The position numbers were made by a program, and so were the translations under genes. A stretch of 64,000 bases of DNA, taken from the NCBI RefSeq assembly GCF_000152905.1, contig NZ_CH672416.1:392398-456397 (forward strand), in the 5' to 3' direction. The notes below the pieces were generated by a model. The model made no database searches. It worked only from the letters and a program-made list of their open reading frames with translations, and was not told the DNA's origin. Numbering within the stretch: position 1 is the stretch's first letter; every line of letters starts with the position of its first letter. The stretch is from Nitrobacter sp. Nb-311A (GTDB lineage: Bacteria > Pseudomonadota > Alphaproteobacteria > Rhizobiales > Xanthobacteraceae). Positions 3 through 12,264 of the stretch are shown piece by piece.

Positions 3-2057
3 ATGAAGCTTACGCTTGCTAACAAATACCGGCCTCAACGATTTGAGGATATTTGGGGCCAGGCCACGTCTGTGAAACTTCTTTCCAGGTTGGCCCAGCT
101 ACGTCATGGTAGACCGTTGCTGCTCAGTGGCGCCTATGGGTCCGGGAAAACTTCGCTAGTTCGACTCTTTGCCAAGGCCCTCAATTGTGAAGCTCCGAAC
201 GAGCACGGGTCTCCCTGTCACGAGTGTCGTTTCTGCCTAGGCCAAGAACACAGCTGTTTGGTTGAATACGATGTGCCTGCTCTCGGCGGTGAGAAGGACG
301 TAGTTAGAGGGTGGGTTGAAGCGCACCACCGCGAAGTTCGAGACGGTTGGCGCATTCTATTCTTTGATGAAGCACACGCCTTGACACCGGCGGCAATGAC
401 TAGCCTCCTCAAAGAGGTCGAGGACTCCAAGCGTGGAATTGCGTTCGCCTTTGCGACAACCGATCCGTGGCAGCTAACAGCGGCATTGCGGTCTCGGTTG
501 CTGGAGATTGAAGTTCGCCCGCTTGACGTGGCTGATGCGGTCGAGTTCCTGGAGTCCATCGCCCGACGCGAAGGTATCGCTTACGACAGAGAGGGACTGA
601 TCTTACTCGCCTCAGTTAAACAGGGGCATGTCCGCGATTTACTCGGTGGACTTGAGCATGTTGCGGGCGCTTTTGGCCACGTGAGCGCCGAAAATGTAAA
701 ATCGATCTTTTGCGTCCACCATCTTGAACTGCTGGTCGAGTATTTCCAGGCACTTGCCGCCGGAGATTCTGAAGGTCAGATGTCGGCCATGCGGAAATGG
801 CATGATCCAATTTCCGCAAAGGTCCAAGGCGTGCGAGCGCTTCTCACATCGATCTTCTACAATGAGATCCTGGGACAGAAGGTACTGATCGACGCTTTTG
901 TGGATTCGCTAATCAGCGAGCGGTTCGGAATTGTATCGGGCTTCTGCGAGCGTCTTAATGTTGACAGCCCGCGGAAACTTGAGCGCTTCTGGGAGAAGAT
1001 GCTGAGTTTTTGGGCTGGTCGTCAGTCAATGGATGAAACGGGTCTGACCCTGTGTCTCTCGCTGTTTGAAAATCTGGTAAACCGAGGTCTCACAGATGGT
1101 GTCGGACTGATATCGACTGCTGTCCCAATTGTCGAACGGCCGTCGGCGCAACAAGCAGTGTGGATTCCACATGTCGCCACCGAACTTATCAGCGAACGCT
1201 TTTCAGAAGACGGCGGCAGGACCGATCAATATCTGAGCCGCGCTGACGTCCGCGAAATCGTAAACCGCGCCTCATTCTTTATACAGCATCATGGACGGAT
1301 GATGAATGCAGCGTTCACCGTTTTTCCCGGTTGGCGGGCCAAGTCGTCTGAACGCACCGCAATTGAAGCCATCAGGCAATTTCGAGAAAAATTGGATTGT
1401 CTCTGCTCGGATGCTGGAGAGCCGCATGCAAGCATGACAGTCTATGAACGTGACTTGGATGGCGTTTTCGGCCGTATAGTCGCTCATGTTCCACAGATTG
1501 TTGATCCCAATTTCGCGACTGTTCTGGCGGACTGGTGCAACGGTTTCAACGAAGACAACAGCGAAGGGCCGTTTGTTGAGTGGGATCAAAAATGCGACCC
1601 CAAGAATTCGACATCCCTGACATTTCATTGGGATCGCGTATTGGCGCTTTGCGGTTCGTTCTATGACGATGGGGTGTCCCATGGTGCGTGCTCGCTGCTC
1701 GATCATCTACAAATCCCTCGTAAGATCAGACGACCATCGGGACCGATACGCAGCCCGTTGCTTGAGTTTTCGGGTGCTCTGACAGCGGAATCGATCGAGA
1801 AATCCTGCATGAACAACATGCTGCCCCTGTCCGCATTCGACGCGCAGGCGTGGCCATGGATTCGGCGAGGTTGGGAGCAGAAGGAATTCGTCGACCGGCA
1901 AGGGGAGGTTAACAGGCGGCGCGATGAGATAGCGAAAATTCAGCGACTTTGGAGCGGTGATCACAGCCGGCAACTCGCGGAAGTGGAGAAGCTCATAAAG
2001 AATTGGTCTCTCGCTGAGAATCGCAATCGCAGTTGGCGCGGCTGGTGGCTTGCTTAG
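3..2057 (+). CDS. DnaX-like AAA+ clamp-loader ATPase, accessory copy
   Basis: A 684-residue protein whose first 230 residues match the gamma/tau (DnaX) ATPase of DNA polymerase III. It has an opening KYRPQRFEDIWGQ, a Walker A at residues 43-50 (GAYGSGKT), four zinc-knuckle cysteines at 62, 72, 75 and 78, a DEAH Walker B at 122-125 and a sensor-1 ATTD at 151-154. The SRC arginine-finger motif reads SRL at 164-166, keeping the arginine. Residues beyond about 400 match nothing I recognise and lack the usual tau tail. The ATG at base 3 lines up with the usual DnaX N-terminus, so the gene is probably complete although it begins at the window edge. It is followed after 12 bp by a second clamp-loader-like gene. 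Housekeeping dnaX normally sits elsewhere, so this is inferred to be an accessory paralogue. Confidence 0.75.
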   Translation: MKLTLANKYRPQRFEDIWGQATSVKLLSRLAQLRHGRPLLLSGAYGSGKTSLVRLFAKALNCEAPNEHGSPCHECRFCLGQEHSCLVEYDVPALGGEKDVVRGWVEAHHREVRDGWRILFFDEAHALTPAAMTSLLKEVEDSKRGIAFAFATTDPWQLTAALRSRLLEIEVRPLDVADAVEFLESIARREGIAYDREGLILLASVKQGHVRDLLGGLEHVAGAFGHVSAENVKSIFCVHHLELLVEYFQALAAGDSEGQMSAMRKWHDPISAKVQGVRALLTSIFYNEILGQKVLIDAFVDSLISERFGIVSGFCERLNVDSPRKLERFWEKMLSFWAGRQSMDETGLTLCLSLFENLVNRGLTDGVGLISTAVPIVERPSAQQAVWIPHVATELISERFSEDGGRTDQYLSRADVREIVNRASFFIQHHGRMMNAAFTVFPGWRAKSSERTAIEAIRQFREKLDCLCSDAGEPHASMTVYERDLDGVFGRIVAHVPQIVDPNFATVLADWCNGFNEDNSEGPFVEWDQKCDPKNSTSLTFHWDRVLALCGSFYDDGVSHGACSLLDHLQIPRKIRRPSGPIRSPLLEFSGALTAESIEKSCMNNMLPLSAFDAQAWPWIRRGWEQKEFVDRQGEVNRRRDEIAKIQRLWSGDHSRQLAEVEKLIKNWSLAENRNRSWRGWWLA

Positions 2058-2069
2058 AGGTCGCGAAAC

Positions 2070-4415
2070 TTGCTGGACGTGGATTTTCTTTCAAAGCCGC
2101 CGCCCGCCTGCCTCAGTCGCACGGTGGTCTATCGTTACCGAACGGGGATGCTACGTTCGGCCATGATTGAAGCACTTTCACAGATTTCGGGGCGCGGTGG
2201 AAATCTGATCTTTGACTGTTCCTTCGGCGACTTGTTCTCCTTGAGTGTCGGCGGCGGTCTATTTCAAGGAATAGGCATCTGTGACTGGCCAAAAGAGGGG
2301 CTTAACGCTACCGCTGAACGGATTACCGCGACATTGGAAGCAATTAGCCATCAGGACGGGCAGCCGGTGATCCTTTTCGTTTCCAGCGAGAGCACACTTC
2401 CGAGGCATCGGCTGTGGTCAAAGGTGGAGGAAGTAAGCTTACTGATTCACGAGCCCGTCGTTTGCTCCCCTGCTCTGCTGCCAATATTGAAGTATCTCGA
2501 GTCGCGAAGCGCTCTTGTTCCGCAAAGAAATCTCGTAAGACAGCGTGAATTCTTGAACTATTTTGAAGATATCATTGTTCACGATCGGATGAATTTACAT
2601 GAGCTAAGGCTGGCATTCGATCGCGCTGTCTTGCTGTTCGTTGATCCCGATACCGGCCTGTTCTCTGGTGAAGTTGCCAACGAAAAACAGCATCGCAGCC
2701 GCAGCATCGTCATGCGGCCATTGCGCTCAATGGTCGAGCGGCGGGATCCCCTCCAGCTTCCCGAATTTCTCCGCGGGCTAGCGGTTCGTTTCCCGTGCGG
2801 ACGGCGAGGAGATGAACTGGCCGATGACCTAGCTCGTTACACAGTTACTCTTTTGAAGTTAGATCCCGCGAGGCAGAGGTGCGTATCGGGCACAGATCAG
2901 CTTGAAGATCGTAAATGTAGGGTGTTGGTTTGGGTCTGCGTTTTCTTAGTATTTACTAATCGGTTCTCCGAAATCGACGCCCAGCAGCCCATTTCCGGAT
3001 CCCATGTTGATCAAACGCTGATCTTGGTGGACGAACTGGGACGCGCGTTTTTAGATCGAACCACCCCGATCACGGCAGACGATCCGCTAGTTGGACTCTG
3101 GGCACAGCTGCGGAGCTCGATATCGTTCGTACGCGCCAGCAGCGAGGAGAGCGAAACGAGCTTCAGCAAAGTTGTGCGCGATCTTGCTTCCCTTTTAGGT
3201 GAATCGACGGTGGCGGAAAGGCAGTGGATTGCACGTCTGCGTGATCTTCTGACGAGCGATGCGGACAACCTTACGAGCAACAATCGGCAAGCCGTTGAAT
3301 CGGGCTCGGTACGTCTAGGCTCAAGATTTCAGCCGCAGTCGTTTGTCGACATAATCGGCCATCAAGTTGCGGTCGCAGGACTGCAGCAACGCATCAGATC
3401 GGATCGGCATGGTGCGCCGCTGGTTCTTTGCGGGCCTAAGGGCGTTGGTAAGAGAACGCTTGGCCGGATTTATGCAAAAAGGCTGCTATGCGAGAGCGGC
3501 ACAAACGTGGATGCGTCGCCGTGTGGAAGTTGCCCTACCTGCAAAGAATTTGAAACTCGAAGCCCCCTTGAGTTCGTCGAATTCGACGCTGGCGCATCGT
3601 CGGCGGCGCAATATGTGCGGGAGGAACTGCTACCTAACCTGCGGTTCGAAACATCCATAGGGCGCCGCGTGGTAATGATCACTAATCCAGATAGCAATCC
3701 ACAGCTGGTCGAAGTCTGCCTCAAGACGCTCGAAAAATCCTCAGCAGTAAACAGCTTCATTTTCACCGTTACCCATGTAAGGGGGCTTAGCGGCGCCGGG
3801 CAATCCCGCGCCGAGATGTATCGCCTCTTCGCACTTACTCCGCTCGAGAGCAGGCGACTCGCAGAGCGATTCTTAGGGTCAGCCGCATATCCACACGACA
3901 GCCAAGTGCTTGATGTGATATTGGCCGAATCTGGCGGATTGCCTGGTCGGCTGCGGGAGTTGTGTGACTGCATCCAGAGCACGCAGTCGAAAACTCTCGA
4001 CGAAGTGCGAAAGGCATTAGGACTAGATTGGGCAAAAGCAGCAATTGGTTTTTGGCGCTCACTCCTGACGCCACATGAGTTGAACGAAAAGGAGCTTAAT
4101 CCTCCGGCGGGGGTGCCTCCCAGCGGAATGGCACGTCGTGTTAGCTCGGTTCTGAACGAGATCTACTATGTCGGTTCAGGCGGAGAGACGCGACATCCAG
4201 CCCTGATGCACTTGAAAGATAACCCAATCTCGGACCTTGTGTCCCAAATCACCGCCCGATCAGCCGAGCGGGGAATGTCGTTTCACCAGTTATGGGCCAC
4301 GCTGGCTGACATTTGGCTATGCGACGATCACGGAGACGCGGCGGGATTTCGGGGCGCTAGCCTTAGGTCGCACGCTATCCTTCGATCTGAGATCCTAGGC
4401 GTTAATTTGGGGTAA
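2070..4415 (+). CDS. HolB/DnaX-like protein with long, possibly HolA-like N-terminal region
   Basis: A 781-residue protein. Residues about 415-640 resemble clamp-loader subunits: RFQPQSFVDIIGHQ, a P-loop-like GPKGVGKRT at 455-463 (the residue after Lys is Arg, as in many HolB proteins), four cysteines at 474, 485, 488 and 491, and an LKTLEKSS segment equivalent to LKTLEEPP. Walker B acidic residues and the SRC motif are absent, so it is probably not an active ATPase and best fits delta-prime. The first 380 residues are unfamiliar; the stretch at about 55-140 is loosely reminiscent of delta (HolA), which is speculative. I chose the TTG at 2070 because an AGAGG ribosome site at 2056-2060 overlaps the stop of the preceding gene. 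The two genes are almost certainly one operon and probably one complex. Confidence 0.7.
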   Translation: MLDVDFLSKPPPACLSRTVVYRYRTGMLRSAMIEALSQISGRGGNLIFDCSFGDLFSLSVGGGLFQGIGICDWPKEGLNATAERITATLEAISHQDGQPVILFVSSESTLPRHRLWSKVEEVSLLIHEPVVCSPALLPILKYLESRSALVPQRNLVRQREFLNYFEDIIVHDRMNLHELRLAFDRAVLLFVDPDTGLFSGEVANEKQHRSRSIVMRPLRSMVERRDPLQLPEFLRGLAVRFPCGRRGDELADDLARYTVTLLKLDPARQRCVSGTDQLEDRKCRVLVWVCVFLVFTNRFSEIDAQQPISGSHVDQTLILVDELGRAFLDRTTPITADDPLVGLWAQLRSSISFVRASSEESETSFSKVVRDLASLLGESTVAERQWIARLRDLLTSDADNLTSNNRQAVESGSVRLGSRFQPQSFVDIIGHQVAVAGLQQRIRSDRHGAPLVLCGPKGVGKRTLGRIYAKRLLCESGTNVDASPCGSCPTCKEFETRSPLEFVEFDAGASSAAQYVREELLPNLRFETSIGRRVVMITNPDSNPQLVEVCLKTLEKSSAVNSFIFTVTHVRGLSGAGQSRAEMYRLFALTPLESRRLAERFLGSAAYPHDSQVLDVILAESGGLPGRLRELCDCIQSTQSKTLDEVRKALGLDWAKAAIGFWRSLLTPHELNEKELNPPAGVPPSGMARRVSSVLNEIYYVGSGGETRHPALMHLKDNPISDLVSQITARSAERGMSFHQLWATLADIWLCDDHGDAAGFRGASLRSHAILRSEILGVNLG

Positions 4416-4516: not shown

Positions 4517-4897
4517 CTACGTGCTGTTATCTGTCTCTATCGCTTCACTGAGGTCGAAACCTCGGGGTTTCTCCTCCTCGGTCCAGACGATGTCGTCGAG
4601 ACCCGCCAGCGTACGAAGCCTTTTGGAAGCATCGTCGAACGATGAAGGCCGAGACGGCTCGCTAAGGGGATTTTGCCAACGTGCGATTGAATTATCGGCC
4701 GTTCGCTGTTCGAACCTCGTGATGATCGTGAACAACCAGCTTGCTTGGCTTTCGCTGATGAAAGCTCTCGCCTGATAGAGTTCGATTTTACGAAGTGTGT
4801 TTTGCAGAAAGGACACCTCTTTAAGACTCAGGCTTCCGTCGCATAAGGCGCCAGTGATACGTCGCCCCAGTCTTTTAAAGTCGTCTCCGACGATCAT
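4517..4897 (-). CDS. hypothetical protein, 126 aa
   Basis: I do not recognise this protein. It reads as a soluble, mainly helical polypeptide: residues about 8-65 could form a helical bundle with a repeated Leu/Ile/Phe pattern, followed by a polar tail. The start ATG has no clear ribosome site. It is convergent with the two clamp-loader-like genes. The competing plus-strand frame over the same bases is basic and serine-rich and looks like a shadow. No signal peptide or membrane segment is visible. Confidence that this is a real gene is moderate. Confidence 0.45.
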   Translation of the reverse strand: MIVGDDFKRLGRRITGALCDGSLSLKEVSFLQNTLRKIELYQARAFISESQASWLFTIITRFEQRTADNSIARWQNPLSEPSRPSSFDDASKRLRTLAGLDDIVWTEEEKPRGFDLSEAIETDNST

Positions 4898-8599: not shown

Positions 8600-9427
8600 A
8601 TGCCGCTGCCCGCCGAATACACAGCACCAACGGCATTGAGGTCTCTTGGTCCGAATGTCTACAGCCGATTCCACCAGGTGACGGCGTGGCTTCAGCACGA
8701 GGCATTCGTGACTTGCGTCGGTTCCTGGCAGTGTGATGAAACGCCGCACATTTTTGTCAAAGGCGATTGGCTGACCCACCTCCACGTGCGCAGCTACAAC
8801 GTTTTTGCTCTCATTGACGCCGTGGGCGTCAAAGCAGCGCTTGTGGAGAACAAGTTAACCCGCGAGGGTTTGTTGAGGCTGCGGGAGCGCTTGGACGAAC
8901 TTGCGGGAAAATGGCCGCAAGTGTCGTTCGTTTCGTTTGCCGACAGCGTTCTTCTCAAAAGCAATTGGACGGTCGGGCACTACGAAAGCACCGTCAAATA
9001 CACTTTTGAACCGGAATTGCTGCTGTATCTCTACGTTGAAGTTCAGGCGGCATACCGAGACATTCTCGGCTTGAACGCCTATGGCGTTTTCACGCAGGGA
9101 AGCAATGAATACCACGATGACGGCGTGACGCATGTTTCCAAGAGTGGCAATCACATCTCGCTAAATAGCTTGGGTTTGCCGATTGCCCAGCTCATGGCAA
9201 TCGACGACGCCGCGCGTGCGGCGACTAGGTCCGGCGTTCACACCCCCGCCGACTTATATATGGACAAACAGTTTTATCGCTCCCTGCAGCTTGCTTATGC
9301 ATACCAGAAGATGAGAAGCCACGTCACAACTACGTTTCGCCGATGTCAGGCGAACTCGCCGAATATTTCTACGCTGACAGCGATGTCATATTGGACAACA
9401 TCAAAGCGCAAGAGGGGGAAGCCATGA
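8600..9427 (+). CDS. hypothetical protein of the HEPN operon, 275 aa
   Basis: I do not recognise the family. The protein is soluble and rich in aromatic residues. A segment around residues 73-96 runs from an Asp (FALIDAVG) to VENK, which has the spacing of a PD-(D/E)XK active site, but this is weak evidence. The stop TGA overlaps the next gene's ATG in an ATGA arrangement, which supports this frame to its end. However, the last 35 residues are unusually Ser/Thr/Lys-rich, while the +1-shifted frame over the same bases (9301-9423) reads like a natural acidic protein segment and runs straight into the next gene. A frameshift is therefore possible. Confidence 0.6.
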   Translation: MPLPAEYTAPTALRSLGPNVYSRFHQVTAWLQHEAFVTCVGSWQCDETPHIFVKGDWLTHLHVRSYNVFALIDAVGVKAALVENKLTREGLLRLRERLDELAGKWPQVSFVSFADSVLLKSNWTVGHYESTVKYTFEPELLLYLYVEVQAAYRDILGLNAYGVFTQGSNEYHDDGVTHVSKSGNHISLNSLGLPIAQLMAIDDAARAATRSGVHTPADLYMDKQFYRSLQLAYAYQKMRSHVTTTFRRCQANSPNISTLTAMSYWTTSKRKRGKP

Positions 9428-10110
9428 GCTATCAGACGGCCGCCCAAGCGAAAGAAAAATACACCGCTAAAATGGGCGACAAACTTGGGCCGCAGTTTCA
9501 CGAACTGCGCCAAGAGGTCATTTATCTGAACCGCAAGTGGATGGAGTATATTACCCTGTTCGGCACTAAGCCGACGCGCGTTCAGCTTATGAATGCAACC
9601 GCGCCGGTGTTTTTCCGGACCGTGCAGGATGTCTTTTACGACGATATGCTTTTGCACATAGCCCGGCTTACCGACCCGTCACAGATGGGGAAATTCTCAA
9701 ACCTGACCTTTCAAAATCTTTCCGACCTTATCAACGATGAAAAGCTAAAGGCAAAGGTCGACCCGCTGCTTAAGTCTGCGCTTGAGCAGTCGGAGTTCTG
9801 CCGCGATTGGCGAAACAAGCTGGTGGCCCATCGAGACTTAGACGTAGCCATCAACGGTACCGCCGACCAGATAAACGGCGGCACCCGAGAGCAAGTGAAT
9901 AAAATCATTGCAACACTGTCAGAAATCCTCAACGCCATTGAGCTTCACTTAACGGAGGGCAGTACGCATTACACTTTCGACGGTCACACCGGCGGAGCAA
10001 AGGACTTGCTGTTCTTCCTTGATGACGGAAAAAGACGCCACGACGAACGGCGCGCGCGCATTGTATCGAACAAGGCGACGCCTGACGACCTTGCAGCCCG
10101 TGATGTGTGA
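9424..10110 (+). CDS. AbiU2-like HEPN-domain protein
   Basis: A 228-residue protein resembling the HEPN_AbiU2 family, abortive-infection-type proteins whose HEPN domains are usually RNases. The body has the family pattern: a start with KLGPQFHELR, then FGTKPTRVQLMN, then APVFFRTVQDVFYDDMLLH, then IARLTDPS. The HEPN catalytic motif appears as WRNKLVAHRD, i.e. R-x5-H. I placed the start at 9424, not at the earlier ATG 9343, because it overlaps the stop of the upstream gene (ATGA), has a purine-rich GAGGGGGAA ribosome site, and gives the usual family length. Coupled translation with the 275-residue gene suggests a stoichiometric partner, perhaps a toxin-antitoxin-like pair. Confidence 0.75.
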   Translation: MSYQTAAQAKEKYTAKMGDKLGPQFHELRQEVIYLNRKWMEYITLFGTKPTRVQLMNATAPVFFRTVQDVFYDDMLLHIARLTDPSQMGKFSNLTFQNLSDLINDEKLKAKVDPLLKSALEQSEFCRDWRNKLVAHRDLDVAINGTADQINGGTREQVNKIIATLSEILNAIELHLTEGSTHYTFDGHTGGAKDLLFFLDDGKRRHDERRARIVSNKATPDDLAARDV

Positions 10111-10727
10111 GGAACGCGCTTGCTTGACGGCGGTTGCCGAGGACATAGAGCGAGACGTTCGAGACCACGTTCGGCACCCTGCAGCGAACCCTAGATCTGG
10201 GCCGAACGCTCTCCGAGGGGGCGAGCGTGGGCATGGGCGCGGCGGCGCGGGGGCTCGATACGGTGGAAACGTCATTACGGCAGTTGCCTGAGAGGCGGCC
10301 GCAAGCTGGCGCCAACGCCCGTGCCGTAGAATGGAGAGCCCTGCCCTCCGGAAAGTGGATGGGTAGGCGAGTGGATGGCAGGTAAAGAGGAGTAGACGGT
10401 TCAGATGGAGGGGAAACTGCCTTCTAAACTGAAATAGCGCCGGGCCAGCAGATGACCTCGCACAGTCGAAAGCGATATTTTGCAACGGCAGAAGCGAAGG
10501 CGGCTCGACTTCGGGACACAAGACTGGTACACACGAGCCGCTCGGGCGAGCGATAAGTCTCTGATTCTATTGATTTTGTTGAAGCTGCGCGGCAATCCCT
10601 CCCTCTCCGCCATTTCGCGGCTCCCCAAGCGAAGGAATCAGAACGGAGCGGCAGGGAGCGCGCCACGTCGCAGCGACATCCTCGGGTTTTAGATGGCGCG
10701 GCGGCGGAGTTAGAGACGGCGAGCTCT
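10111..10727. other. stretch without a convincing gene; possible coding remnant at 10149-10385
   Basis: No complete gene is evident. A plus-strand open frame from 10149 to the TAA at 10383-10385 reads like the end of an Ala/Arg-rich helical protein (containing TLDLGRTLSEG and LDTVETSLRQLPERR) but follows a stop and has no good start, so it may be a decayed gene. From 10386 to 10727 I see nothing I can support. Confidence 0.4.
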
Positions 10728-10988: not shown

Positions 10989-12264
10989 CAGGCTGTTGAA
11001 GAAGTGTCCCGTCTGGCTTTCGGGATGGCTTAATCGCCGTTGTGATGAGATTTGGATTGAGCTGTCGAGCAGTTTGGCGTGGCCGTGGGACGGGGGGTCA
11101 TGCTGGCACCGCCATGAGCTTCGGCAGTCGCACCAGATTGTAAGCGGCGGCTGCGAAGGTGAAGGCCCATTCGACGCGGTCGCGGCCGCGGAAGCGGGTC
11201 TTGTCCTGGCGGGCGACCGTCTTGATCCAGCCGAAGGCTTCCTCAATGCGCTTGCGGATACGCTGGCTGACGGCATAGCCGCTGTGCCGCGTCGTGCGTC
11301 CGTCGATCGCCGAGCTTCGGCCTCTCGTGTTCTGCGCCACGTGCGGCGTCACCTTCATCGCGCGCAACTCATTGACGAAGTCCTCCGTGTCATAGGCCTT
11401 ATCAGCGCCAAGTGTGATGGCCAGGGGCCGGTCGGCGCGAGGTTCGATCATGTGCAACGCCGCCACCCGCTCGGCATGTCCGTCGGCCAGCGTCAGGCAG
11501 GCGTCGACCAACAGGCCGTGGCGGTTCTCCATCAGCCCATGACCCATGAAGCATAGCTTCGCCTCCTTGCCCTTGCCCTTCTTGTAGAGCCTTGCGTCCG
11601 GATCGGTGGTCGAGGCATGCGTGTCGTTAGTCCGCTTCTGGCCGTGGAAGTCGGCTTCGGCATTGCGCCCGACGCCGCCGGCCGGCGGCTCGCCAGAGCC
11701 GTCCTTCGGTTTGACGCTCTTCATCGAAGCCCAGGCCTCGATCAGCGTGCCGTCGACCGAGAAGTGATCTGTCGACAGCAGCTTCTTCACCTTGGGCTGG
11801 GCCAGCACCGCACTCAGGAATTTGGCCGCGATGTCGCCCTCAAGCAGCCGCTCGCGATTCTTCGAGAACACCGAATGGTCCCAGGCTGGATCGTCGACGC
11901 CGATGCCCACGAACCAGCGGAACAGAAGGTCGTATTCCAGCCGCTCCATAAGCAACCGCTCCGAGCGGATCGAGTAGAACGCCTGCAAGAGCATCGCCCT
12001 GAGCAACTTCTCGGGTGGGATCGACGGCCGCCCGAGTGGCGAGTACAGCGCCGCGAACTCCCGCTCCAAAGCGACAAGCCCTTCGTTCACCGTGACCCGG
12101 ATGGCGCGAAGCGGGTGGTCGCGTCGAACCCGCGCCTCCAGATCAACGTAGCTGAACAGCTCGCCAGTCAGATTGTCACCACCGCGCACTCATCATCTCC
12201 AAATCGCTTCGGAGCAATAAATCATGCTCACAGCTCGGCCGCGACTGGCTTTTTCAACAGCCTG
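10989..12264 (-). mobile_element. IS5-family insertion sequence, complete
   Basis: About 1,276 bp. Terminal inverted repeats begin CAGGCTGTTGAA on the left (from 10989) and read CAGGCTGTTGAA inward from 12264 on the right; 15 of the first 16 positions match. A 4-bp direct repeat CTAG flanks it at 10985-10988 and 12265-12268, the YTAR-type target duplication expected of the IS5 subgroup. It carries one transposase gene on the minus strand. Intact ends and an uninterrupted transposase suggest a recent or still functional insertion. Confidence 0.9.
11098..12189 (-). CDS. IS5-family transposase
   Basis: A 363-residue DDE transposase. The N-terminal domain has LGRPSIPPEKLLRAMLLQ and LEYDLLFRWFVG, typical of IS5. 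Candidate catalytic acids are Asp in FSVDGTLIEAWAS, Asp in LGADKAYDTEDF and Glu in RIEEAFGWIKT. The start is GTG at 12189, preceded at seven bases by GGAG; the ATGs just upstream are in another frame. It spans nearly the whole element and shows no frameshift, so the element is probably autonomous. Confidence 0.93.
   Translation of the reverse strand: MRGGDNLTGELFSYVDLEARVRRDHPLRAIRVTVNEGLVALEREFAALYSPLGRPSIPPEKLLRAMLLQAFYSIRSERLLMERLEYDLLFRWFVGIGVDDPAWDHSVFSKNRERLLEGDIAAKFLSAVLAQPKVKKLLSTDHFSVDGTLIEAWASMKSVKPKDGSGEPPAGGVGRNAEADFHGQKRTNDTHASTTDPDARLYKKGKGKEAKLCFMGHGLMENRHGLLVDACLTLADGHAERVAALHMIEPRADRPLAITLGADKAYDTEDFVNELRAMKVTPHVAQNTRGRSSAIDGRTTRHSGYAVSQRIRKRIEEAFGWIKTVARQDKTRFRGRDRVEWAFTFAAAAYNLVRLPKLMAVPA

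Follow-up and report, generated by a model that had tools for sequence, protein, structure and literature searches.

To our knowledge, textbook bacteria have one clamp loader, that of DNA polymerase III (Pol III), with DnaX, HolA and HolB as its subunits. Eukaryotes keep special-purpose loaders beside the replicative one, and the Rad17, Ctf18 and Elg1/ATAD5 loaders share the small RFC subunits and exchange the large one. One study (PMC11044049) likewise describes a Rad24 loader that has its small RFC subunits in common with the main loader, the large one being swapped. Plasmids and phages are already known to carry extra clamp-loader genes. Here we describe two adjacent genes, A and B, at one end of a 64,000-nucleotide stretch of the Nitrobacter sp. 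Nb-311A genome (contig NZ_CH672416.1, positions 392,398 to 456,397; hereafter the window). Their products both belong to the clamp-loader family and complement each other in their motifs, and the two genes are kept together in relatives, in most cases along with a helicase gene. We put at about one half the probability that A and B form a self-contained accessory clamp loader, carried on an island and using the host beta clamp as its ring, and that its purpose, in the reading we prefer, would be to interfere with invading DNA.

The pair resembles the Pol III loader in having a motor with Walker A, DEAH, cysteine and SR motifs (A), a stator with a degenerate ATP site and SR (B), and three-domain subunits with a collar. 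Here, however, the delta- and delta'-like parts probably share one chain (split at one locus, L104), A carries an extra C-terminal region, an SF3-type helicase is encoded in the operon, the setting is a mobile island and no polymerase or clamp is seen in the module. A also matches RFC small subunits in a search of Protein Data Bank (PDB) sequences, but in contrast to the Rad17/Rad24-RFC, Ctf18-RFC and Elg1/ATAD5-RFC loaders, the A-B module supplies its own subunits. Clamp-loader genes on mobile DNA are found in a cyanobacterial conjugative plasmid of Scytonema (AP018264.1, 43428-56315), where beta, gamma/tau and delta' genes are annotated in one stretch; there, unlike here, a clamp gene lies beside the loader, and no VapE is annotated in that stretch.

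Gene A is an open reading frame (ORF) at window positions 3-2057 (684 residues) and gene B one at 2070-4415 (781 residues, TTG start), both intact and on the forward strand, 12 bp apart as the preliminary description of this DNA had stated. That description had also called A DnaX-like with a Walker A motif, a zinc knuckle and a DEAH box, all of which are present. The Walker A motif GAYGSGKT (residues 43-50, 129-152) is conserved as GxxGxGKT in all seven A proteins that we found, DEAH (residues 122-125, 366-377) occurs in five of them with DEAQ in the other two, and an SR motif is conserved in 7/7. The putative zinc-binding cysteines C62, C72, C75 and C78 (186-236) stand in DnaX-like order and are invariant across the aligned proteins; zinc binding by such a cysteine set is known from DnaX. 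A matches PF13177 (Pfam, E 1.8e-12) and the NCBIfam model dnaX_nterm (TIGR02397) at 164.5 bits, below the curated cut-off of 250. Residues ~1-365 correspond to clamp-loader domains I-III, across which the predicted structure resembles E. coli gamma/tau, collar included, and together with the motifs this suggests a gamma/tau-type motor. Residues ~410-684 form a C-terminal region that is specific to these proteins and falls in no recognised family; its best PDB sequence match has an E of only 0.76, and we make no claim of a new fold since other domains dominate the fold matches listed, among which none was for this region.

In gene B, a clamp-loader AAA module at about residues 416-660 is preceded by some 400 residues. 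The module matches PF13177 (E 5.9e-9, residues 432-586) and dnaX_nterm (91.1 bits at residues 418-664, again below 250). The gamma/delta'-like C-terminal half (residues 416-777, 3315-4400) has a degenerate Walker A motif, GPKGVGKRT (residues 455-463, 3432-3458), in which the Ser/Thr following the P-loop Lys is replaced, as in all seven B proteins; the Lys itself is Arg in L104. A DExx Walker B box is absent from 7/7 B proteins, L104 having DDAE. The sequence SRA (residues 579-581, 3804-3812) occupies the position of the SRC arginine finger, with SR present in seven and SRC in five of the seven proteins. With a collar domain in the predicted structure, this half has the features expected of a delta'-type stator. 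The preliminary description had B as HolB/DnaX-like, which holds for the C-terminal half; we reject a plain HolB, because this AAA module scores best with dnaX models and groups beside A rather than HolB, a rejection kept tentative by long tree branches.

The N-terminal half of B (residues 1-376, 2070-3197) probably resembles delta (HolA), a suggestive rather than proven likeness that draws on the topology of the model, a weak profile match, and L104, where B is encoded as two adjacent genes (L104:11347-13716) split at the domain boundary. When this half was compared with HolA in hhalign, none of 600 shuffles scored higher. In the profile register, Leu64-Phe65 (2259-2264) is predicted to align with the beta-binding motif of delta; the aligned position holds Leu in all seven B proteins and L-[FY] in six. 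B as a whole is best described as a probable delta-delta' fusion.

The same genome has separate genes for dnaX (C11:6743, on the same contig as the window), holB (C38:99322) and a holA-type protein (C44:244578), and one beta clamp gene, so A-B is an extra set and not the housekeeping copy. The preliminary description had proposed an accessory loader distinct from the housekeeping set and had named the lack of another dnaX, and homologues that never occur together, as grounds for giving the idea up; neither applies, the pair standing together at all seven loci described below. A is ~29% identical to the strain's own DnaX over residues 4-333 and none of the eight other genomes searched in the genus has it; their matches are dnaX- or holB-type, and genome G005 gave one weak AAA match (E 8e-4). 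In a tree of AAA modules (59 rows), the A sequences group together (support 91/89), as do the B sequences (100/97), and both groups stand clear of DnaX and HolB. Within both, the window pairs with L100 and L102 with L103, and L104 is outermost; the positions of L101 and L059 differ between the groups. That B may have descended from an A-like DnaX is only a hint, given the length of the branches, the placing of HolB within the DnaX group (with a very long branch of its own) and a support of 89/72 for the A-B join.

For the third loader gene that the preliminary description suspected beyond the left edge of the window, we find a gene but not a separate holA. It encodes a VapE/SF3-type helicase (C11:390898-392403), lies just left of the window and ends 4 bp into A, its 3' end occupying positions 1-6. 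The VapE-like domain (PF05272) scores 33.7 bits against a gathering cut-off of 25, and an alignment of four VapE-like proteins conserves QG[TS]GK, a DD pair, IGTxN and a G-x-RRF stretch, all SF3-type features. The operon's first gene is in this respect like those of VapE/P4-family helicases (PF05272, DUF5906), from which it differs in its clamp-loader partners and in that no primase family was found in Pfam up to E 0.01, TIGR01613 (primase_Cterm) reaching 16.7 bits against a cut-off of 108.7. No match was obtained in PADLOC up to E 0.001 or among PDB sequences at E 0.01. The VapE-like helicase at L057 (4554-6065, +) has, by eye, a J-domain-like N-terminus containing HPD, a layout of J domain and SF3 helicase that recalls large T antigen.

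Full-length relatives of B occur in four of 397 genomes of the order, our own included. A scan of 84,980 species of the genome collection with a profile of the A C-terminal region matched 193 stretches, from which five loci were confirmed: Bradyrhizobium lablabi CCBAU 23086 (L100), a Rhizobiales metagenome-assembled genome (L101), Methylobacterium oryzihabitans (L102, which matches the contig of L058 in length and content), Methylobacterium sp. Leaf465 (L103, which so matches that of L057) and Bradyrhizobium sp. RP6 (L104). As the scan relies on two short patterns, five is a minimum; genome G027 was missed, and its locus (L059) brings the total, with the window, to seven distinct loci. B directly follows A at all seven (as two genes in L104), including the five detected through A alone, and we reject a chance pairing on this ground. 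The VapE gene precedes A at six. A profile of the B N-terminal half found only its own match among 385 genomes of the class and three matches among 398 of the phylum: its own, G226 and a weak 120-position match in G217 (E 3.7e-4). Moreover, a PD-(D/E)XK nuclease gene (PDDEXK_13) lies within 5 kb of the module on the opposite strand at five of the seven loci, directly divergent from A in L104; in G226 it is on another contig. This family is uncommon: in the order, 10 of 249 genomes have a match. In four the match is strong (E at or below 1.2e-80); three of these four contain the module, and the fourth is G202.

The window copy is on an integrative island of ~36.6 kb. At its left end are tRNA-Ser(CGA) (C11:366381-366470) and a tyrosine integrase gene (PF00589), and at its right end is an attR-like 19-bp copy of the tRNA 3' end (10594-10612). 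In G005, ~308 bp separate the same tRNA from sequence that matches the window from 13948 onward, and the island is absent; this was the one island-free site among five relatives compared at the tRNA, the other four matching on the left side only. The 3.3 kb between 10613 and 13948 is likewise missing from G005; it contains a transposase-like ORF (11098-12189, by eye). Besides the VapE-A-B operon and PDDEXK_13, the island carries LmuB-like, methylase, DrmA/B/C-like and PDC-S28 genes, in keeping with the defence-type surroundings noted in the preliminary description. Elsewhere, the module of L059 is directly followed by matches to the four parts of a type II CBASS (effector, cyclase, E1-E2, JAB), and PDC-S21 and Type II helicase/MzaC matches are neighbours in L104; a neighbour protein from L101 and another from L057 gave no defence-family match. 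All of these PADLOC families are neighbours only, and none models the module's own genes.

In the mechanism that we favour, A would act as the motor, like gamma/tau, and B would provide in one chain the stator (C-terminal, delta'-like half) and the wrench (N-terminal, delta-like half). One B and three A subunits would give five modules, as in delta-gamma3-delta', with the B fusion reaching over the gap from position A to position E. At recessed 3' ends such a loader would most likely open the beta clamp of the host, as no clamp gene is seen in the module and all five genomes checked have a single beta-clamp gene. The A C-terminal region may tether the VapE-like helicase, as tau tethers DnaB, and the loader may mark replication intermediates of invaders, where the linked nuclease or other island effectors would act. 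A stronger version, a bacterial analogue of the alternative loaders of eukaryotes in which a second complete loader with fused delta and delta' serves immunity by using or removing host beta at invader intermediates and by directing helicase and nuclease there, is doubtful.

A number of observations weigh against this interpretation. The predicted structures are of middling confidence (pLDDT 71 and pTM 0.41 for A; 74 and 0.43 for B). The hhalign match of the B N-terminal half to HolA is weak (E 0.0059 and 0.0048, probability 6-7%), and against a HolA profile of 44 sequences one of 150 block shuffles scored higher. This half has no Pfam match, no NCBIfam model matches residues 1-417 (E <= 1), a PDB sequence search returned one unrelated chain (E 0.032), and the fold matches listed for B all concern the C-terminal half; as other domains dominate that list, no new fold is claimed here either. 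L102 is without the LF of this half, L104 is without VapE, and in the Methylobacterium loci L057 and L058 the module has no such nuclease next to it. The defence role draws on neighbours alone, as no PADLOC model fits the module: the best of five weak P-loop matches of A reaches 17.4 bits, and neither B (up to E 0.1) nor VapE has a match. The PADLOC neighbour search covered the window island, L059, L104, L101 and L057. Finally, an integrase lies within ~1.3 kb of the module at three of the seven loci (by eye), which suits element replication equally, and the helicase is of a type best known from replication.

The last two points lead to the most serious alternative, that the module replicates the integrative element: VapE would unwind the excised circle, A-B would load host beta for host Pol III, and the defence genes would be cargo. 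VapE-like SF3 helicases replicate phages and satellites, and a VapE profile finds relatives in 37 viral loci. The integrases in question, all identified by eye, are ~1 kb downstream of B in L101 and L104 and, as a pair, upstream of VapE in L057; together with the integrase of the window island, with L058, where the module ends ~0.55 kb from a tRNA-Ser, and with the loader genes of the Scytonema plasmid, they fit this alternative. However, no polymerase, primase domain or clamp is seen in the module, and L104 retains loader and nuclease without the helicase. Scans of viral contigs yielded 31 candidate stretches for the A C-terminal profile and 38 for that of the B N-terminal half, with no relative confirmed in either, and the best tblastn hit of A and B over the 37 VapE viral loci has an E of 0.1. 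Neither plasmids (A, B) nor phages (B) gave a place covering 80% of the query, and those listed are dnaX-type. We regard replication of the element as quite possible, though at less than even odds, and would slightly prefer interference with invading DNA.

Clamp-loader parts could also have been turned into an AAA+ signalling or sensor machine that makes no contact with beta. The long tree branches, the family-specific A C-terminal region without a PDB sequence match, SRA in place of SRC in the window B and the missing LF in L102 would suit such a machine, but both models contain collar domains, the division into motor and stator motifs holds at 7/7 loci and the LF position is kept in six, and we think it unlikely. 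A redundant paralogue backing up the housekeeping loader would have the same fold and motifs; given the divergence of A from the strain's own DnaX, its separate tree group, its score below the dnaX equivalog cut-off and its absence from the eight other Nitrobacter genomes searched, this is very improbable. An accessory loader directed at invading DNA remains our preferred reading.

Other observations concern the surroundings of the module. A small ORF at 4517-4897 (-) was rejected as a further component: it is similar by eye to L100:5943-6317 (-), but tblastn over eight loci found nothing at E 0.01. In G202 (L115, G202:C1:7040000-7059999), a PDDEXK_13-type nuclease gene and a small neighbour stand before different large genes (of 1129 and 1065 residues, among others), possibly another defence system; the same small gene lies beside the nuclease in the window island, L100 and L104. 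An unusual DISARM variant may be present at L005:838-14398, where DrmA/B/C-like genes are accompanied by a methylase, an LmuB/DUF3732 ATPase and two proteins that match no Pfam family. Two overlapping ORFs of 275 and 255 residues lie within the island end (window 8600-10110), the former without a Pfam or PADLOC match (E 0.1 for both). A PP2C-like phosphatase (by eye) of the window island (L138:13296-14090, -) is 63% identical to one in Bradyrhizobium lablabi (L100:1450-2241, -).

As the preliminary description had supposed, neither the VapE-A-B operon nor the A-B pair is described among the open-literature matches listed, which include excerpts of PMC11044049 and PMC3331839; most subscription journals and preprints lie outside that scope. 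Divergent oceanic HolB/DnaX paralogues have been reported, with no A-B-type operon in the excerpt at hand (PMC12153180), and PMC12839542 does not mention clamp, DnaX, VapE or SF3. From the extra clamp-loader genes of plasmids and phages the module differs in the probable fusion in B, in its SF3-type partner, in its defence-island setting and in that no clamp or polymerase is seen in it. The module is open to experiment, being a small set with intact motifs and named relatives in Bradyrhizobium and Methylobacterium. A mobile, self-contained second loader would make one ask if loaders for special purposes exist in bacteria as they do in eukaryotes, and if loading a clamp serves as a weapon or as a tool when hosts, phages and mobile elements come into conflict. 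With this set, a core replication machine may have been put to a new use.
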